A stretch of DNA of 64,000 nucleotides from Castellaniella caeni NBRC 101664. GTDB lineage: Bacteria; Pseudomonadota; Gammaproteobacteria; Burkholderiales; Burkholderiaceae_B. The stretch covers positions 1 through 64,000 of the forward strand of contig NZ_BCWN01000005.1 of NCBI RefSeq assembly GCF_001592225.1, written 5' to 3'. The notes under the pieces were generated by a model that saw only the letters and a program-made list of their open reading frames with translations, had not been told where the DNA came from and made no database searches. The translations under genes were made by a program, and so were the position numbers. Shown in pieces: positions 10,371 through 19,398 of the stretch; positions within the stretch are counted from its first letter, which is position 1; the number at the start of each line of letters is the position of its first letter.

Positions 10371-11942
10371 ATGTTCAAAAATATCAAGATTTCCAATACC
10401 CTGCTGACCGTCGTCCTGGCCTTCATCTGCCTGCAGGCGGTGCTGGGCGGACTGGGGTACTGGGCCCTGAATCGCGTCAACGACCGGGTGCAGACGCTCT
10501 ACCAGAGCGCCATCGTGCAGACCAATACGGTCAATGCCGCCACGCTTTCCCTCATCACGGCGCGCACCGACCTCAGCCGCTACTCCACCCGGGTCGCCCA
10601 GAATCACCCGGAGCAAAACGACACCCTGCTCAATGCGCGCAAGTTGATCGCCGCCGCGGACGTTCGCATCGCCGATCTGCAAAAAGGCCTCGGGGCCGAT
10701 GACGCGCGCGCCATGGCGCCGTTTCTGACGGCCTACCGGCAGTACAGCGACAACCTCAAGGGGGTCGATCGCGTCTTGTCGGCGGGCGACATGCAGGCCT
10801 ACCTGAAGCAGGGCACCCAGAAGGTGCAGGACAACTACATGTCGGTGCGCGATCGCTTCGTGAGCAATGCCGAACAATTTGGGCAAAGTACCATGCAGCG
10901 CATCGAGTCGTTCTACACGCTGTTCATCGGCGCCCTGGCCGTGACGCTGCTGGTCAGTCTGCTGGCGGCCCTGGGCGTCAACGTCATGGCGCGACGCCTG
11001 ATCGTGCGTCCCCTGCTGGCTGCCGCCGAGCAGTTCAAGCGGATTGCGGCGGGCGACCTGACGCGCCGGATTCACGCCGACGGACGCAACGAGATCGGCG
11101 TGCTGCTGCGCGCCTTGCAGGACATGCAGCATAGCCTGGTGGGCTTGGTGGCCCAGGTGCGCGAAGGCGTACAGGAAATCCACCTCAGCACGCAGGAAAT
11201 TTCGGCGGGCAATACCGATCTGTCCAGCCGCACCGAAGAACAGGCCGCCTCGCTGCAGGAGACGGCGGCCAGCATGGAGCAGCTGTCCTCCACGGTGAAG
11301 CAGAACGCCGAGCACGCCCATCAGGCGAGCAGCACGGTGTCCGCGTCTTCCTCGGTGGCGCAGCGCGGCGGCGAGGCGGTCGAGGGCGTCATCCAGACCA
11401 TGGGCGCGATTGCCGACAGCTCCGCTCACATGGCGGAAATTGTGGGCGTCATCGACAACATTGCCTTCCAGACCAACATCCTGGCGCTCAATGCCGCCGT
11501 CGAGGCGGCGCGCGCGGGCGAGCAGGGCAAAGGCTTTGCCGTGGTGGCCTCCGAGGTGCGTGCCCTGGCGCAGCGCAGCGCGGGCGCGGCCAAAGAGATC
11601 AAATCGCTGATCGACGACTCGGTGCTGAAAGTCTCCACCGGCACCCAGCAGGTCAGTCGCGCGGGCGACACGATCCGCCAGGTGGTTGATTCAGTGGCGC
11701 AAGTGACGCGCATCATGAGCGAAATCTCGACGGCATCGGCTGAACAGGCGAGCGGCATCGGGCAGATCAATACGGCGGTCTCGCAGATGGACGGCGTCAC
11801 GCAGCAAAACGCGGCGCTGGTCGAGCAGGCCGCCGCTGCGGCCCAGGCCCTGCAGGATCAGGCGCAGCACCTGGCGCAGGCCGTGGCCTTGTTCAAGCTG
11901 CCCCTTCAGGCTGACGGCGTGGCGCTGCTGGCCGCTTCTTGA
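10371..11942 (+). CDS. methyl-accepting chemotaxis protein
   Basis: A 523-residue Tar-like transmembrane chemoreceptor. It has one membrane segment near residues 8-30, a periplasmic four-helix sensor region (about 31-190), a second membrane segment (about 190-212), a HAMP domain (about 213-265) and a long cytoplasmic coiled coil with the conserved signalling tip ([20 protein letters not shown]). No CheR-docking pentapeptide is seen at the C-terminus. The ligand is unknown. The start at 10371 gives a normal N-terminus; upstream in-frame codons lie inside the regulator gene. Its last 37 bp overlap the end of convergent fadD. Confidence 0.93.
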
Positions 11943-13597
11943 TTTTTCAGTTCGCGGCGCAAGATCTTGCCGACGTTGCTGCGCGGCAGGTCGTCGCGGA
12001 ATTCGACGAACTTGGGCACTTTGTAGCCGGTCAGCAGCTTGCGGCAGTGCGCGATGACCTCGGCCTCGGTGAGATTGGGGTCTTTGCGGATGACGTACAG
12101 CTTGACAACCTCGCCCGAATGGCCGTTGGGCACGCCGATGGCGGCGGCTTCGAGGATGCCCGGGTGCTCGATGGCGGCAGCCTCGACTTCGTTGGGATAG
12201 ACGTTGAAGCCGGACACCAGAATCATGTCTTTCTTGCGATCCAGCAGAAAGACGTAGCCCTTGTCGTTCATGTAGCCGATGTCGCCGGTGAGCAACCAGC
12301 CATCGGCGTCGAAGACCTTGGCGGTTTCTTCGGGACGGTTCCAGTAGCCTGACGTCACTTGCGGGCCCTTGACGCAGATTTCGCCCGATTCGCCGATGGC
12401 CATGCTGCGGTTGTCGGTGCGCACGGCCACGTCGGTGGATGGCACGGGCAGGCCGATCGAGCCGTTGAAATCGACCTTGTCGAGCGGGTTGATGGTGACC
12501 GCGGGCGAGGTTTCCGTCAGGCCATAGGCCTGGGCGATGGGTTTGCCGGTGACCTTCAGCCAGCGCTCGGCGATGGCTTCTTGCACGGCCATGCCGCCGC
12601 CCAACGTGGTGTGCAGGCTGCTGAAATCCAGCTTGGCAAAATCGGGGTTGTTGAGCAGGGCGTTGAACAGGGTGTTGACCCCCGTGAGCGCCGTGAATTT
12701 GACGCTGCCCAGCTCTTTGACGAAACCCGGGATGTCGCGCGGGTTGACGATGAGCAGGTTGCTGGCCCCCAGCTTCATGAAGGTGAGGCAGTTGGCCGTG
12801 AGCGCGAAGATGTGATAGAGCGGCAGGGCCGTGACCACGCATTCGCGTTCGCCCGCGCAGAAGGGCTTGACCCAGCTATAGGCCTGGCAGACGTTGGCGA
12901 TGAGGTTGCCGTGGCTGAGCATGGCGCCCTTGGCCACCCCGGTGGTGCCGCCCGTGTATTGCAGCGCCGCCAGGTCGTGGTGCGTGAGCTCGGGGCGCTG
13001 GTAGGATGCCCGGGCGCCCGCGGTCAGCGCATCTTTGAGCCGGAAGGCCCCGGGGATGCGCCAGGCCGGCACCATCTTTTTCACGTGGCGCACCACCAGG
13101 TCGGTGATGAGGCCCTTGGGAAACCCCAGCATCTCGCCCAGCGAGGTGACCACCACGCGTTGTACGGTGGTGCCCGGCATGGCTTCTTGCAGTGTATGGG
13201 CGAAGTTTTCGGCCACCACCACGGTGGTGGCGCCCGAGTCGGCCAGCTGGTGGTTGAGCTCGTGCGCGGTATACAGCGGGTTGGTGTTGACCACCACGGC
13301 ACCCGCCATCAGCGTGCCGAACAGGCAAATGGGGTACTGCAGCAGATTGGGCATCATCAGGGCCACGCGGTCGCCCTTGGCCACCCCCTGCGTTTGCAGC
13401 CAGGCGGCGAAATGCTGGGCCCGTTGATGCACTTCGGTGTAGCTGAGGGACGCACCCATGCTGATGTACGCCGTGTTGTGGGCGTACAGCCGACAGCTTT
13501 CCTCGAAGAGATCGGCCAGGGATTGGTAGCTTGCGGCCATCTCCGTGATGTCAGCCGGCACCCCGTGCGGGTAATGTTCCAGCCAGATGCGTTCCAT
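11906..13597 (-). CDS. fadD: long-chain fatty acid-CoA ligase
   Basis: The 563-residue product is an AMP-forming acyl-CoA synthetase of the FadD type, which activates imported long-chain fatty acids at the inner membrane. The ATP-binding P-loop [11 protein letters not shown] and the C-terminal [20 protein letters not shown] hinge/signature are intact, and length equals E. coli FadD. It is preceded by AAGGAA. It is the last gene of a minus-strand cluster with fadL, a thioesterase-like gene and a chalcone-isomerase-like gene. Its 3' end overlaps the convergent chemoreceptor gene by 37 bp. Confidence 0.92.
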
Positions 13598-13628
13598 GGT
13601 GTGTTTCCTTATTGCAAATCGGGATCAA

Positions 13629-14216
13629 TCAGTTGTTTGCGGATTTCTGACCCAACAGGGCCAGTTTCAGCGATTCTTGCGCTGGCGTCGAGCCCAGCCA
13701 GACTTTCAGCAGCGCGGTGGCGAAGCGCGGGTCGTTGACTTCGCCCAGCGCCTTGCCCTTGAACGTCACGGCCACCTTGCCCTGCTGGAAGACGATGTCC
13801 ACCAGATCGCCCGAGGCGCCTTCGCCGCCCGTCTGCATGAAGGCTTCAAAGGCCTTGATGGTGGCGCCCATGGCGGCCAGCTCGGCTTCGCTGTTGTTGG
13901 CCTTGAGGCCGTCGTTCAGTGCGTCGGTGAGGGCCTTGCTGTTGATGTCGCGCAAGAGCGTCAGGCGCAGCAGCTGCGGCTCGCTGCTCTTCAGGATGGC
14001 CTCCACGTCGTGCGTGGGCTGCGGGCGGTAAAGCGCCGCCACATAGATGTGGAAGACAAAGCGTTGGCGCAGGCCCGCGCCATTGAGCACCAGGGCCTGG
14101 CCATCGACGGTCTGCTGCTCGGGGACGTTGACGGTGCCGACGGTGACCGCTTGGGCTGCGGGGCTCAGGCCCAGGGCCGCGCCGGCCAATGTCAGGGCCA
14201 GCAGCGTTTCGCGCAT
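13629..14216 (-). CDS. exported chalcone-isomerase-like protein
   Basis: The 195-residue product starts with a clear signal peptide (MRETLLALTLAGAALGLSPA, cleavage near AQA) and continues as a chalcone-isomerase-like domain of the bacterial periplasmic type (QRFVFHIYVAALY; LVDIVFQQGKVAVTFKGKAL). Plant members of this fold include fatty-acid-binding proteins. The start at 14216 was chosen over an upstream in-frame ATG at 14324 because it places the signal peptide at the N-terminus. Lying between fadD and the thioesterase-like gene, it may bind fatty acids in the periplasm; that role is inference. Confidence 0.75.
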   Translation of the reverse strand: MRETLLALTLAGAALGLSPAAQAVTVGTVNVPEQQTVDGQALVLNGAGLRQRFVFHIYVAALYRPQPTHDVEAILKSSEPQLLRLTLLRDINSKALTDALNDGLKANNSEAELAAMGATIKAFEAFMQTGGEGASGDLVDIVFQQGKVAVTFKGKALGEVNDPRFATALLKVWLGSTPAQESLKLALLGQKSANN

Positions 14217-14320
14217 GGCTGTCGTGGCGCGTTGCCGTGTGTTGCCGCGCTTGTCCTGGCGGACGCTGGCGGCCGGGCGGCGTGGCAAGGCATTGAAAAT
14301 GACCGATGGAAGGCGGAATG

Positions 14321-14848
14321 TCATGTGGGGTCTCCTGCCGCGCCGTGGCGCAGCTTGTGTTGTTTGTACCAGGCCTTGTCGGCCAGATAGAGCGTGCGTT
14401 GCACTTCGGTATGCACCGTGCCGTCCGGGCCCTTGAGCTCGACGGGGTAGGTGCGCTCGGTTTCGTGGTCGCGCCGCAGGGCCTCGCGGATGTCCCGCAG
14501 TTCGGCTTCCGACAGGCGGAAGTCCGCCGTCAATGTGTGGAAGGCGGGCTTGCGGTAGCGGATGGTGGCGGCCTTGTCCCAGACGATGACGTCGCTGCCG
14601 AGCCGCGCCATCAGCATGCCGGCGTGCACGCCGTCCGTGACGGCAAACAGCGAGCCGCCATAGATGGAGCCCACCAGGTTGCGCGTGCGCCGGGTCAGCG
14701 CCAGGCGCACGCGGATGTGCAGCAAGTCAGGCGCGACGAAGACCACCCGGCCGCCGGTTGCCCGGAAGGCCGGGTGGAGATTGAAGCCCATGCGCATGGC
14801 ACGGGCCGCCCATCGTGGCGACAGGCGGGATAACTGCGACAGCTTCAT
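14321..14848 (-). CDS. DUF4442 hotdog-fold thioesterase-like protein
   Basis: The product is 175 residues starting MKLSQLSRLSPRWA, with the hotdog-fold core (TRRTRNLVGSIYGGSLFAVT, then AATIRYRKPAF) typical of DUF4442 proteins related to acyl-CoA thioesterases. No catalytic assignment is possible by eye. The start at 14848 is preferred to one 150 bp upstream because the family normally begins near this point. It lies between fadL and the chalcone-isomerase-like gene on the same strand, so a role in acyl-chain handling is likely. Confidence 0.75.
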   Translation of the reverse strand: MKLSQLSRLSPRWAARAMRMGFNLHPAFRATGGRVVFVAPDLLHIRVRLALTRRTRNLVGSIYGGSLFAVTDGVHAGMLMARLGSDVIVWDKAATIRYRKPAFHTLTADFRLSEAELRDIREALRRDHETERTYPVELKGPDGTVHTEVQRTLYLADKAWYKQHKLRHGAAGDPT

Positions 14849-15024
14849 GCCCGTGTCCTGCCCTTTATCGACCAGACGGCATTTGCCGACTTGGCGCCGA
14901 CCCGCGCGGCCAGAGCCGATCGGGTTGAATACAAGCTGCCGGGCTTGGGGCAGGCCGAGGATGCCGCATTCGAGCCTGGCCAAAACCGCAGCGGGCAAAA
15001 CACAGGGTTCACAGCGTCTCCTGC

Positions 15025-16371
15025 TCAGAAACGATGCGAGAACTGCACGCCGATCAGGTCGGCGCTGCTGTCGTAGGTGCCCTTCAGCGTGCCGGCCGAG
15101 CTGTCCGCCGAGTGGTTGTTCACCGAGGTGCTCTTGACGAACAGGTGGGCATAGCCGACGTCGATGCTGGTGTTCTTGCTGAAGTTGTACTTCGCGCCCA
15201 GCGACACCCAGTAGCGGTCATTGTCCGGCAGCGCGGAGGGACGGTAGGCATCGCTTTGCACCGGCGATTGATCCCAGGCCACGCCGCCCTTGAACGTCCA
15301 GCTGTCGCTGTAGCGGTAGTGCGCGCCCAGGGCCACGCGCCAGGCATCCTTGAAGCGCAGATCGAGCTCGGCATCCGGCACGCCGCTGTTCTTGATCTTC
15401 AGCTCGGGGATGCTGCTCCAGCCCGTCCACGAGACGTCGCCCAGCAGCGTCCAGCGATCGTTCAGGTTATGGACGACGCTGAAGATGGCCGTGTCGGGCA
15501 GTTCGATGGAGGCGTCGGCGCTATGCGAGCCGAGGATCCCCTGGGCCTGCAGGCCGCCTAGAATCGTGGCGTTGGCGACATCCCTATTGCTGATTTTTGT
15601 CGTCCCATCCGCGTCGATTTTGACCTTGGATCGGTAGGACAGACCCAGCCGTGTATCTGGGGTCGCTTGCCAGAGAACGCCTGCGTTCCAGCCCCAGCCG
15701 TCGCCGTCGGCCTTGACCTTGGCATTGAGATCACCCATGTAGGTGCCTGCTCCCGGCATCGGGGCCGGCACGCGAACGGCCTGCGCTTTACGGTAGTCGG
15801 CGTTCAGCTGCATCCAGTTCAGGCCGACGCCGAAAGACAGGGTGTCAGTGGCCTTGAAGGCAATGGACGGATTGACGTTGATGCTTTCAATCGAGAATTT
15901 TTCCGAGTGATAGCGTCCAGCCCAGCCTTTTTCGTAGTCTGTCATCAGGCCAAACGGCGCGCCGATGCCCAGGCCCAGCCATACCTTGGGATTCACTTCC
16001 CAGGTGAAGTAGGCGTTGGGGACGACGCCCCAGGATCCCGCGTTGCCTCCGTCAGAGCCGCCCGAAGGTTGGCCGGAGAGGGCCGGGACACCGTTGTTTC
16101 CCTTGGTCGTGCCGTCATTCGAAAACTCGAAATTCGGCTTGATGGCCACCACGCCCGCGCTGGCGTTCATGCCGGGCAGCAGCGTCATGCCGGCCGGGTT
16201 GAAGAACACGGTGCTGGCGTCCTCGGCGATGGCCGCCGAGCCCGCGAAGGCGCTGCCGATGCCGCTGGCGTTCTGTTCCAGCAGCTGGAAGCCCGCGGCA
16301 TGGGCCACGCCCACACTGCCCAGGCCCAGGATCAGGGCCGACAGGGTCTTGATCGGGTGATGCGATTTCAT
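15025..16371 (-). CDS. fadL: FadL-family outer-membrane fatty acid transporter
   Basis: A 448-residue FadL-type beta-barrel. A signal peptide (cleavage after AHA) is followed by AGFQLLEQNASGIGSAFAG, the family hatch start with the NPAGM-type motif (FFNPAGMTLLPG), and the chain ends in a terminal aromatic residue (FSHRF), as outer-membrane barrels do. FadL moves long-chain fatty acids and other hydrophobic compounds across the outer membrane. The start at 16371 has a strong AGGAGA site; an in-frame ATG farther upstream would bury the signal peptide. Confidence 0.92.
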   Translation of the reverse strand: MKSHHPIKTLSALILGLGSVGVAHAAGFQLLEQNASGIGSAFAGSAAIAEDASTVFFNPAGMTLLPGMNASAGVVAIKPNFEFSNDGTTKGNNGVPALSGQPSGGSDGGNAGSWGVVPNAYFTWEVNPKVWLGLGIGAPFGLMTDYEKGWAGRYHSEKFSIESINVNPSIAFKATDTLSFGVGLNWMQLNADYRKAQAVRVPAPMPGAGTYMGDLNAKVKADGDGWGWNAGVLWQATPDTRLGLSYRSKVKIDADGTTKISNRDVANATILGGLQAQGILGSHSADASIELPDTAIFSVVHNLNDRWTLLGDVSWTGWSSIPELKIKNSGVPDAELDLRFKDAWRVALGAHYRYSDSWTFKGGVAWDQSPVQSDAYRPSALPDNDRYWVSLGAKYNFSKNTSIDVGYAHLFVKSTSVNNHSADSSAGTLKGTYDSSADLIGVQFSHRF

Positions 16372-16523
16372 AGGTTCTCCTCCAGTGATGAGTGTCGGGG
16401 CTTGTTCGTCCGAGAAATTCAGGCGCGCAAAGACCCCTGCCGCACCCGGTGGGGCGGCGTTCAAGGCATACAGAAGCCCGCACGGCGCTCGTGAGCGCAG
16501 TGTCTGGGTGTTTTCAGAAAGAC

Positions 16524-16540
16524 GCCGGGATCAGACCGGC
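16524..16540 (-). terminator. weak hairpin after the TetR gene
   Basis: A 5-bp GC stem (16524-16528 with 16536-16540) is followed, reading the minus strand, by a pyrimidine run with several Ts. It could terminate the regulator message before fadL. The remaining 16372-16559 spacer holds a second short inverted repeat at 16485-16498 and no gene. Confidence 0.35.
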
Positions 16541-16559
16541 ATGAGCGGGGGATCAGCCA

Positions 16560-17324
16560 TCATTTGGTGTCATGAATGCCCCCCTGAGAAGATGAAGACG
16601 TGTGGTGGTCGGTGGCCGCCCGCGCGGAGGCTCCGGCCGGTGCGTGCGCCTGCCCGGCGGGCAGGGCGGAAAGCTGGGTGGGCAGCGGCGCGCGCAGCCC
16701 GCCCAGCAAAAATGTCATCAAACGGTTGAGCAGTTCTTCGGCGTTGATGCTGGTGTCGCCTTGCAGGTTCATGACCTGGCTGGAGGACTCGGCCCCCATG
16801 ATGGCGTAGGCCGTGGCCCCCAGCATGAAGTGGAAGCGCCAGACGATCTCGGCTTCGGGCACGCCGGGCAGCGACGTCAGCAGGGCACGGGTGAAGCGGT
16901 GGGCCACGACGGAGCGCTCGGCCTCGAACAGGGCGGTGATGGCCCCGTTGGGGTCGGACAGGTTGCTGCTTTGCAGCGGCATGAAGGCGCGCCGTTCGGC
17001 CCCCGCGCTGCAGGCGTGGCGCACGAGCGGGCCGAAGTAGGCCTCGACGATGGCCGATGGTTTCAGGGGCTGGCCCCCGGCCTGGGTCTCGAGGTCGTCG
17101 AGGATGCGCAGGCGTTCGTCGTTGAGGGCGTCCAGCCGACGCTGGAAAACCGCTTCAATCAGGGCGTCTTTGGAACCAAAATGATAATTGACCGCCGACA
17201 GGTTGACCTGCGCCGTCTTGGTGATCTGGCGCATGGATGTCTTGTCGTGCCCTTGCTCTGCGAACAGGCGTTCTGCGGCATCGAGAATGGCATCACGGGT
17301 GAGGGAGGAGCGGGAAAGTGTCAT
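16560..17324 (-). CDS. TetR-family regulator (PsrA-like)
   Basis: A 254-residue TetR regulator. The N-terminal helix-turn-helix (ILDAAERLFAEQGHDKTSMR and VNLSAVNYHFGSKDALIEAV) resembles PsrA-type fatty-acid-responsive repressors. The C-terminal ligand domain is long, with a low-complexity Ala/Gly tail. It lies just upstream of fadL on the same strand, and a CAAACGTTTG palindrome sits at its own promoter, so control of the fad genes and of itself by an acyl ligand is likely but unproven. The start at 17324 is preferred over 17360. Confidence 0.85.
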   Translation of the reverse strand: MTLSRSSLTRDAILDAAERLFAEQGHDKTSMRQITKTAQVNLSAVNYHFGSKDALIEAVFQRRLDALNDERLRILDDLETQAGGQPLKPSAIVEAYFGPLVRHACSAGAERRAFMPLQSSNLSDPNGAITALFEAERSVVAHRFTRALLTSLPGVPEAEIVWRFHFMLGATAYAIMGAESSSQVMNLQGDTSINAEELLNRLMTFLLGGLRAPLPTQLSALPAGQAHAPAGASARAATDHHTSSSSQGGIHDTK

Positions 17325-17332
17325 GTCTGATT

Positions 17333-17355
17333 CAAACGTTTGTTTTAAAACTATA
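17333..17355 (-). promoter_or_regulatory. TetR promoter with palindromic operator
   Basis: A perfect 10-bp palindrome CAAACGTTTG (17333-17342) lies 8 bp before the regulator start, next to a TATAGT box (17350-17355 on the minus strand) that can serve as a -10. PsrA-type repressors bind CAAAC/GTTTG half sites. The position over the transcription start suggests autorepression. Confidence 0.55.
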
Positions 17356-17493: not shown

Positions 17494-19398
17494 ATGGCGT
17501 CTGTTCGGCAGCTGCTGGTGATCTCGACCCTGGTCATTGCCTGCATCCTCGTCGGGATGCTGGCGGTCGGCACCCGAATGATGGATCGGCAGCTCGATGG
17601 CCAGCTGCAGATCGACGGCGACAATGCCGTCGCCACGCTGGCCCTGCTGGTCAGTGTGCAGCCCGATGCCGCCGCGCGGGCCCGCGTGCTTGCGGCCGCC
17701 TTCCAGCAGGGGCGCTTTGCCGCGCTCGCGCTGCGGGGGGATGACGACACCGTGGCGTTCGAGGCCCGCCGCCTGTCGCCCGGCGTGGCCGGAGCGCCCA
17801 GCGGCCTGATGGCCTGGGCCGACATCCAGCCGCACCAGGCCCAGCGGCAGATAGCGGGGGTGGGGCGCCTGTCCCTGGTGCTCGATCCCACGCCCGCGCG
17901 CGAGGCCTTGTGGGCCCACGTGGCGCAGTGGCTGTGGCTGGCCCTGGGCATCGCCGCCTTCTGGGCGCTGTTTTTGGCCGCGTTGCTGGCACGCCTGCGC
18001 AAGGCGCTGGCCGAGACCCCCGCCGCCGAAGGCCCCGAGATCAAGGTCACGCAAACGCACGGCGATGAAAACGCCGAGCTGCTCGACGAAGTGCGCGAGC
18101 GGGTGGCGCCCTCGATGGGCGAACAGATGGCGCGCATCGAGCAGCTGGAAATCGAACTCAACCGCGATCCGGTCACCGGCCTGGCCAACCGCGTCTATTT
18201 TCTCAACGAACTCAAGCGCGTCTTGCGCGACGACACCCGCCAGGGGGCCGTCAGCGGCTATGTGCTTCTGGTGCGCCAGCGCGACATGGCGCGTCTGCAA
18301 AATCAAAGCGATCGCCAAGAAATGGACGATTGGCTGCGTCTGCTGGGCAGTCGCCTCACCGAAGTGCTGGCGGGCTTTCCCCAGGCCCGCGCCATGGCGG
18401 CGCGCCTGAACGGCGCTGATTTCGTGGTGCTGTTTCCCGTGGGCGGCGGGCCCGAGGTCATGCGCCCGGTGCAGCGCCTGCACGAACTCTTCGAGACATT
18501 GCGCGTCAAGCTCGACAGCCACAATCTGTCGCGCTGGGCCTTTGCGCTGACGGACTACACGGCGCAGTGCACGCCCAAAGACGTGCTGACGCGCCTCGAC
18601 CTGGCCCTGATGTGCGCCGAGAGCGCCGGGCACTCCGAGGTCGAGTTCCTGTCGCACGCCGACCGCGAGACGGGCGAGCTGCGCATGGGCGAGGCTTCCT
18701 GGCGCACGCTGATCTCGCAGGCGCTCGACCACGACCGCCTGTCGCTGGACGTGCGCGCCGTGCGCTACGAGGGCGATGACATCGCGCAGCGCTACGAGGC
18801 TTCGCTCAGCCTGCAGGAAGACGACCCCGCGCAGCCGCCGCTTTCGGGCTATCTCTTCATGCCGCCCGCCGCGCGCCTGGGCCTGTCGTCCGATTGCGAC
18901 ATGCGCGCCCTGGCCCTGGCCCTGAGCTGGCTGGGCGAGCACGAAGGCGTGCTGGTCGTGCGCATGTCGATGTCCTCGATCCTGGATTCCCAGTATCTGG
19001 ACGAGGTGCGCCGCGTGGCCGACTTCGCCGATCCCGAGCTTTTGCGGCGCGTGGTGGTCGAACTCGACGCCTATGGCCTGAGCCGCCACTTCGAGGCCTT
19101 CAAGGTCTTTGCCCAGGGGCTCATTCAGCTGGGCATTGCGGTGGGCCTGCGCGGGCTCGATCAGCAGCCCGATGCCTTGCGCAAGATCCACGAGGTCGAT
19201 TTCGCCTATGTGAAGCTGGGGGGCGCCTTCGTGCGCGAGCTGCTGTCCAGCCCCGGCGGGGTGCAGATGATGGTGGCGGTCACTGAAACAGCCATCGGCA
19301 TGGGCATGCGGGTCTATGTGGATGATGCCGACGATGAGGCCACCCGGCAGATGGTCATTGAATACGGCGGCCTGCCGCGCCTGCAACAGGGCGGGTGA
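17494..19398 (+). CDS. LapD-like c-di-GMP receptor, degenerate GGDEF and EAL
   Basis: The 634-residue product has the LapD layout: membrane helix (about 7-27), periplasmic LapD/MoxY-type sensor (28-140), membrane helix (about 145-167), linker, GGDEF domain (about 222-385) and EAL domain (about 400-634). Both catalytic signatures are broken: NGADF (306-310) replaces GGDEF and EAS (435-437) replaces EAL. It should therefore bind c-di-GMP rather than make or cleave it. LapD controls periplasmic proteolysis of adhesins through LapG, but no lapG or adhesin gene is nearby. The gene ends 8 bp before the spc promoter -35. Confidence 0.85.
   Translation: MASVRQLLVISTLVIACILVGMLAVGTRMMDRQLDGQLQIDGDNAVATLALLVSVQPDAAARARVLAAAFQQGRFAALALRGDDDTVAFEARRLSPGVAGAPSGLMAWADIQPHQAQRQIAGVGRLSLVLDPTPAREALWAHVAQWLWLALGIAAFWALFLAALLARLRKALAETPAAEGPEIKVTQTHGDENAELLDEVRERVAPSMGEQMARIEQLEIELNRDPVTGLANRVYFLNELKRVLRDDTRQGAVSGYVLLVRQRDMARLQNQSDRQEMDDWLRLLGSRLTEVLAGFPQARAMAARLNGADFVVLFPVGGGPEVMRPVQRLHELFETLRVKLDSHNLSRWAFALTDYTAQCTPKDVLTRLDLALMCAESAGHSEVEFLSHADRETGELRMGEASWRTLISQALDHDRLSLDVRAVRYEGDDIAQRYEASLSLQEDDPAQPPLSGYLFMPPAARLGLSSDCDMRALALALSWLGEHEGVLVVRMSMSSILDSQYLDEVRRVADFADPELLRRVVVELDAYGLSRHFEAFKVFAQGLIQLGIAVGLRGLDQQPDALRKIHEVDFAYVKLGGAFVRELLSSPGGVQMMVAVTETAIGMGMRVYVDDADDEATRQMVIEYGGLPRLQQGG

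Follow-up and report, generated by a model that had tools for sequence, protein, structure and literature searches.

Why does an operon for the uptake of long-chain fatty acids encode an exported protein with the fold of chalcone isomerase (CHI)? The question is raised by a 64,000-nucleotide stretch of contig NZ_BCWN01000005.1 of Castellaniella caeni NBRC 101664 (hereafter the window), in which a minus-strand cluster carries, in order of transcription, a PsrA-like TetR gene, fadL, a DUF4442 gene, the gene of a CHI-fold (Chalcone_3) protein and fadD. The CHI gene clearly belongs to this fatty-acid operon, and its linkage to fad genes among relatives is not a matter of chance. The most likely reading of the protein, to which we give about an even chance, is that of a periplasmic accessory that binds or shuttles fatty acids.

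The first-pass annotation of the window had placed these five genes, in this order, between positions 11906 and 17355. Domain matches bear out the order and the genes do lie there, but the upper limit runs slightly past the likely start of the regulator at 17324. The regulator (16560-17324; this and the other operon features are on the minus strand) has TetR_N (E = 1e-15) and TetR_C_30 (4e-23) domains. Its earlier label, PsrA-like, stands as a resemblance: its match to the NCBIfam PsrA (Vibrio) model (5e-39) scores 134 bits, short of the equivalog cut-off of 300. The fadL gene (15025-16371), with GGAGG before its ATG, encodes an outer-membrane long-chain fatty acid transporter that matches the Toluene_X domain expected of FadL (1e-108, 364 bits) and is the sole FadL-family match in the genome (E <= 1e-15). 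The DUF4442 gene (14321-14848; PF14539, 6e-15) encodes what is presumably a hotdog fold. The CHI gene follows at 13629-14324, and fadD, for a long-chain fatty acid-coenzyme A (CoA) ligase, at 11906-13597. FadD carries AMP-binding (1e-90) and AMP-binding_C (1e-17) domains; its best NCBIfam model, PRK07059 (long-chain-fatty-acid--CoA ligase), gives 837.8 bits (4e-252) against a cut-off of 869, and the FadD equivalog model gives 806.9 bits against 884.

Because these genes share a strand, are separated by short gaps (188 nt between the TetR gene and fadL, 176 nt between fadL and the DUF4442 gene, 31 nt between the CHI gene and fadD) and include an ATGA overlap of the DUF4442 stop and CHI start, with AGGAG ahead, the cluster reads as a single operon. 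A terminator scan did no better than on shuffled sequence, and a promoter scan gave none. The operon looks like a shortened form, with fadE, thiolase and fadB genes not beside it. An E. coli-type FadE in this genome was considered and rejected, there being no ACDH_C match; an acyl-CoA dehydrogenase of different make-up is encoded behind a predicted operator described below. At its borders, the 3' ends of fadD and of a plus-strand chemotaxis receptor frame, which ends at 11942, share 37 bp in a convergent arrangement (11906-11942), and the gene of a LapD/MoxY-GGDEF-EAL protein (17494-19398) diverges from the TetR gene at a distance of about 170 bp.

Export of the CHI-like protein had also been proposed from the first, and a Sec-type signal peptide (14148-14324) can be recognized by eye, ending in LLALTLAGAALGLSPAAQA directly ahead of VTV and having no lipobox. 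The start at ATG 14324 has a good ribosome site but gives the signal peptide a long N-terminal region; ATG 14216 is an alternative. In two loci of the same genus (L018, L020) the CHI frames also start early, 37 and 41 codons ahead of the domain. A simple rule finds signal-like N-termini in 78 of 79 relatives, drawn from 80 loci of which one (L077) was not parsed; the sole failure (L103) has a Leu/Ser-rich core. A possible lipobox lies inside the signal core in 11 relatives, all of them Achromobacter. The protein is a clear member of the bacterial Chalcone_3 family (PF16036, 9e-42; 143.4 bits against a cut-off of 27, covering model positions 1-165 of 165) and also matches Chalcone_2 (7e-7); the sources consulted assign that family no function in bacteria, and what is new relative to the other members is its fad-operon setting. 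No other protein of the genome matches PF16036, and its counterpart in Castellaniella defragrans DSM 12141 is 79% identical.

An AlphaFold2 model of the mature part, built from a 44-row alignment (predicted local distance difference test score 94.9), aligns along its full extent with solved CHI-fold chains (Z 16.5-21.0). Together with the PF16036 match, the predicted structure upholds the fold assignment of the first-pass annotation. The best fold match is the ancestral CHI 5wl4 (Z 21.0, root-mean-square deviation 2.3, 168 aligned), and the other chains score 18.8 (AtFAP3), 18.4 (Aim18p), 18.0 (AtFAP1) and 16.5 (Aim46p). A single-sequence search of the Protein Data Bank gave one chance match, so a profile search was needed; this puts AtFAP3 first by sequence (4.5e-11), with AtFAP1 at 3e-6, and no yeast protein is among its 12 matches at E <= 1. 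The window protein thus has the same fold as the plant fatty-acid-binding proteins (FAPs) AtFAP1 and AtFAP3 of Arabidopsis (4doo, 4dol) from end to end, but it is bacterial, carries a signal peptide for export and is only 14-18% identical to them. It likewise differs from the chalcone isomerases and their reconstructed ancestors (5wl4, 5wks and kin), its best structural matches, in being exported and bacterial, with about 20% identity and no flavonoid context among the neighbours examined.

The Arg of an LNGAGLR motif aligns with that of GTGFR in AtFAP3 and with residue 37 of the ancestral CHIs, in a local segment worth just 5-8 bits. An active-site arginine is described as common to CHIs and FAPs in the available portion of PMC10276294, and the window protein has this arginine as expected of a plant FAP-like protein. 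In a 99-row alignment, with residues numbered from the Met at 14216, 94 of 98 rows retain R50, and the figures are 97 of 98 for Y58, 95 of 98 for Y63 and 94 of 99 for W173.

Lack of any recurring linkage to fadL or fadD had been named at the outset as grounds against the proposal. A neighbourhood survey finds that the linkage recurs and that it is wider than first noted. Beyond fadL and fadD it takes in fadE, thiolase and fadB, in an operon for both uptake and beta-oxidation, and it includes a shared box of the PsrA type. PF16036 is matched in 63 of the 151 genomes sampled from the family, 27 of which have the strong type (E <= 1e-36). FadL lies within 4.5 kb of the CHI gene in 26 of these 27; the exception (G036) has no FadL match but does have the order fadB-thiolase-CHI (L233). 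Since FadL occurs in 73 of the 151 genomes, the co-occurrence table reads 26/1/47/77 (Fisher p = 8e-9; this value and the Poisson expectation below ignore kinship). Within the window's own genus, four of the seven sampled genomes have both CHI and FadL and three have neither.

Among 80 loci from named relatives, in stretches that reach up to 7 kb to each side, a same-strand fad gene accompanies the CHI gene in 65, spread over 25 of 35 genus-level groups (assigned from record titles, with metagenome-assembled genomes that lack a genus forming separate groups). The types found are fadB (62 loci), thiolase (62), fadL (56), fadD (47) and fadE (22). FadL and FadD were searched with the window's own proteins, and the other neighbour clusters were named by Pfam as thiolase, 3-hydroxyacyl-CoA dehydrogenase with enoyl hydratase, and acyl-CoA dehydrogenase with ACDH_C (the fadE type). 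Because these same loci supplied the fad models, the 80-locus counts depend on them; the class sample and the 20 control stretches described next do not. Gene order varies among lineages: fadE-thiolase-fadB-fadL-(DUF4442)-CHI-fadD in Alcaligenes and Advenella, fadL-fadB type-thiolase-DUF4442-CHI-fadD in Achromobacter, and fadE-fadL-fadB-thiolase-CHI in Iodobacter and the kin of Chitinibacter.

Across the class, 116 of 369 genomes match PF16036, 80 of them strongly (E <= 2e-21); the FadL search covered 73 of the latter, and neighbourhoods were read for 60, mostly one per genus. FadL lies within 7 kb of CHI in nine of the 73 genomes, from five families (G211, G295, G516, G423, G408, G251, G468, G504 and G284), where 0.49 are expected. 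Same-strand fad genes occur in eight of the 60 neighbourhoods, in settings that include psrA-ligase-fadL-CHI (L165), fadE-thiolase-fadB-ligase-CHI (L171) and fadE-fadB-thiolase-CHI (L179, L180), the last of these preceded in L180 by psrA. Control stretches taken elsewhere in such genomes hold fadL in none of 20 cases and thiolase in one of 20. In three loci a gene of one cluster stands between fadL and CHI; its product has a Lipase_bact_N domain in L143, and in L161 and L191 the lipase type is assigned by cluster only. These loci recall, by gene setting and not by sequence comparison, the Vibrio cholerae pair of the lysophospholipase VolA (vca0863) and its FadL homologue (vca0862), as given in the part of PMC9496633 at hand. 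In a tree of 99 CHI proteins from a short search, the fad label must have changed 13 times or more, with no fewer than six of these changes forced by starred branches; the label counts fadL on either strand (L144) and excludes the lone opposite-strand fadE of L194 and ligase of L153. The label is also clustered on the tree, which indicates that part of the linkage is descent.

Some CHI loci have further neighbours of their own. In Chitinibacteraceae the CHI gene ends the fad operon, and an Omp85 gene and tamB come next in the same orientation (L071, 6800-14125), a pattern also seen in L076, L079, L081, L084, L095 and L097, where it was read by cluster and not, as in L071, by Pfam. In Gallionellaceae a protein of about 420-440 amino acids is encoded directly downstream of CHI (L086, 7488-8819; also L090, L093, L100, L105, L107 and L110), and a Pfam search of the L086 protein, the one searched, gave no match. 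Genome G032 holds two copies of a second, weaker Chalcone_3 subfamily (L242, 4747-5385 and 8816-9487), within the cluster CHI - amine oxidase - DUF1365 - cyclopropane-synthase-like - CHI - MFS - DUF3833, which is another lipid-modifying setting. Weak Chalcone_3 matches about 4 kb apart are also found in other genomes of the family.

A predicted PsrA-type operator, TTAAAAC-AAAC-GTTTGAA, lies on the minus strand at 17331-17348, 6 nt ahead of the TetR ATG; we take the PsrA box to have the form TTCAAAC-N4-GTTTGAA. The 10-mer CAAACGTTTG occurs once in the window (0.01 expected) and stands in exact form upstream of psrA in six of the eight CHI-less relatives examined. Near-forms of the box are present in the remaining two (L227, L228) and in L180; L165 has no box before psrA and a related box at the start of the ligase frame. 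An inverted-repeat search did not pick up the operator. When a pattern drawn from the window and its relatives is scanned against the window's own genome, five places match with at most two mismatches, and none match the pattern read backwards. The three best sites (at most one mismatch) belong to this operon, where there are no mismatches, to a fadB-like gene and to an acyl-CoA dehydrogenase gene: the box at C5:72367 comes just before a fadB-like 3-hydroxyacyl-CoA dehydrogenase frame, and that at C6:97684 about 60 bp before the acyl-CoA dehydrogenase frame mentioned above. Of the weaker boxes, C5:88818 is 5 bp before a nitronate-monooxygenase-like frame, and C3:149144 precedes a histone-deacetylase-family frame, inside a listed SLT protein frame, with no fatty-acid link. 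By sequence match, candidate PsrA-type boxes are found upstream both of the regulator itself and of fad genes. Under another counting rule there are eight boxes in 12 CHI-less fad loci, six in 60 class loci and one in 20 other stretches. The operon is predicted to be regulated by PsrA.

Plant members of this fold bind fatty acids. For an exported bacterial member whose gene shares an operon and a single upstream regulator with fadL and fadD, the best reading is that of a periplasmic binder. In the mechanism that we envisage, a fatty acid would enter via FadL, the CHI-fold protein would bind free long-chain fatty acids in the periplasm, keep them soluble and hand them on toward the inner membrane, and FadD would trap them there as CoA esters. 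Rather than providing an essential step, the accessory might raise the capacity or safety of uptake or widen its substrate range. Fatty-acid binding, movement across the periplasm and a growth benefit are what we infer from these arrangements.

Several observations weigh against this reading. FadL is described in parts of a 2022 review (PMC9329746) as opening sideways and releasing the fatty acid into the outer membrane, in which case a soluble carrier would not be strictly needed. E. coli takes up fatty acids vectorially with FadL and FadD, both of which are encoded beside the window's CHI gene, yet E. coli, in which FadL is present, has no Chalcone_3 match. The strong CHI type is absent from 47 of the 73 FadL-bearing genomes of the family. 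In 12 of these 47 that were fetched, fadL is clustered with further fad genes and CHI was not detected; six of the 12 loci hold psrA, fadE, thiolase, fadB, fadL and fadD, and one (L231) has just fadL and fadD. Conversely, 12 of the 73 class CHI genomes have no FadL match at 1e-15, and 52 of the 60 class neighbourhoods contain no same-strand fad gene. The box count is also low in the named CHI loci, with eight boxes in just four of the 80, which may come from stretches that end before the operon start. Structural ranking favours the ancestral chalcone isomerases over the FAPs (Z 21.0 versus 18.8), Foldseek puts them first (1.9e-11) with AtFAP3 at rank 15 (3.8e-9), and by sequence they come close after AtFAP3 (3e-10). 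With sequence favouring AtFAP3 and fold favouring the ancestral CHIs, the nearest type is not settled.

Because CHI is absent from these fad loci, it seems to be a dispensable component of an ancient operon for fatty acids, which points to an aid and not a necessity. An obligatory partnership of CHI with FadL was dropped in view of the 47 family genomes that have FadL without the strong type. A general linkage of Chalcone_3 proteins to fad genes was dropped as well, given the 52 class neighbourhoods.

The yeast proteins Aim18p and Aim46p (8ew8, 8ew9) provide a further point on this side and lead to another explanation of the protein. They share the CHI fold and the conserved arginine, and they match the model over its length. 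According to the accessible text of PMC9996372, however, heme is their ligand, the conserved arginine plays a part in this, and fatty acid does not stabilize them, whereas AtFAP1 is stabilized by linolenic and palmitic acid. The fold and the arginine by themselves therefore do not distinguish a fatty-acid binder from a heme binder. The window protein might accordingly be a periplasmic binder of heme or another porphyrin that happens to be encoded in the operon, perhaps to help meet the respiratory demand of beta-oxidation. We consider this unlikely, since fatty-acid genes are what recurs beside CHI, the roughly 30 neighbour proteins that were family-searched include no product of a heme gene, and AtFAP3, not a yeast protein, is the best solved match by sequence. 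The yeast proteins also differ in being mitochondrial and in carrying a fungal loop, as stated in the same portion of PMC9996372.

The protein could instead be a periplasmic enzyme, such as an isomerase or hydrolase, with a lipid or a similar compound as its substrate. The fold is also that of plant chalcone isomerases, whose ancestral forms are the nearest structural matches; R50, Y58, Y63 and W173 are highly conserved, and the second Chalcone_3 subfamily adjoins a cyclopropane-synthase-like gene (L242). Set against this are related proteins that are reported, in the sections available, to have no isomerase activity, namely plant CHIL (PMC10276294) and yeast Aim18p and Aim46p (PMC9996372), and the neighbours examined include no flavonoid gene. 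An enzymatic role of this kind seems improbable.

A protective role in the envelope, in which the protein would not serve transport but act as a sink that takes up surplus free fatty acid, or what its oxidation yields, while the cell grows on fatty acids, also has a rather small probability. Its optional place in the operon would fit such a sink, and E. coli reportedly switches on envelope stress responses when it metabolizes fatty acids, according to the part of PMC7598926 at hand. Sink and shuttle both need binding, however, and nothing here separates them. Finally, the CHI gene is very unlikely to be a passenger with an unrelated periplasmic role and a merely historical place in the operon, given that fad linkage appears in several lineages with differing gene orders and that the box is common to the operon and other fad genes of the genome, even though the 52 class neighbourhoods noted above are free of same-strand fad genes and several CHI genes adjoin housekeeping-type genes (tRNA deacylase, sugar kinase, glycine dehydrogenase).

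CHI-like proteins outside plants were reportedly first described by Gensheimer and Mushegian in 2004. The Pfam family, the fold and the occurrence of CHI-like genes in gamma-proteobacteria are already known; the available part of PMC8301071 places the last of these on record since 2004 and notes that the upstream enzyme is absent. A flavobacterial chalcone isomerase is listed as upregulated and labelled a stress response in the excerpted text of PMC12758843. A literature search made without most subscription papers found none on the placement in a fad operon, on how it recurs or on the common box, which appear to be new.

The consulted part of the 2022 review (PMC9329746) describes as unclear the way in which long-chain fatty acids traverse the periplasm. 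A soluble, exported CHI-fold protein encoded with FadL and FadD makes this passage testable with one protein and one deletion. If the periplasmic-binder reading is true, it would hint at a function for a widespread bacterial Pfam family (matched in 116 of the 369 class genomes) and would bear on the origin of the plant CHI fold. More tentatively, and with somewhat less confidence than we place in the accessory role itself, a dedicated periplasmic carrier may complete a relay from FadL through the carrier to FadD in part of the Proteobacteria, in which case bacteria would have put the CHI fold to this use at an early stage, before the plant FAPs and the flavonoid enzymes.

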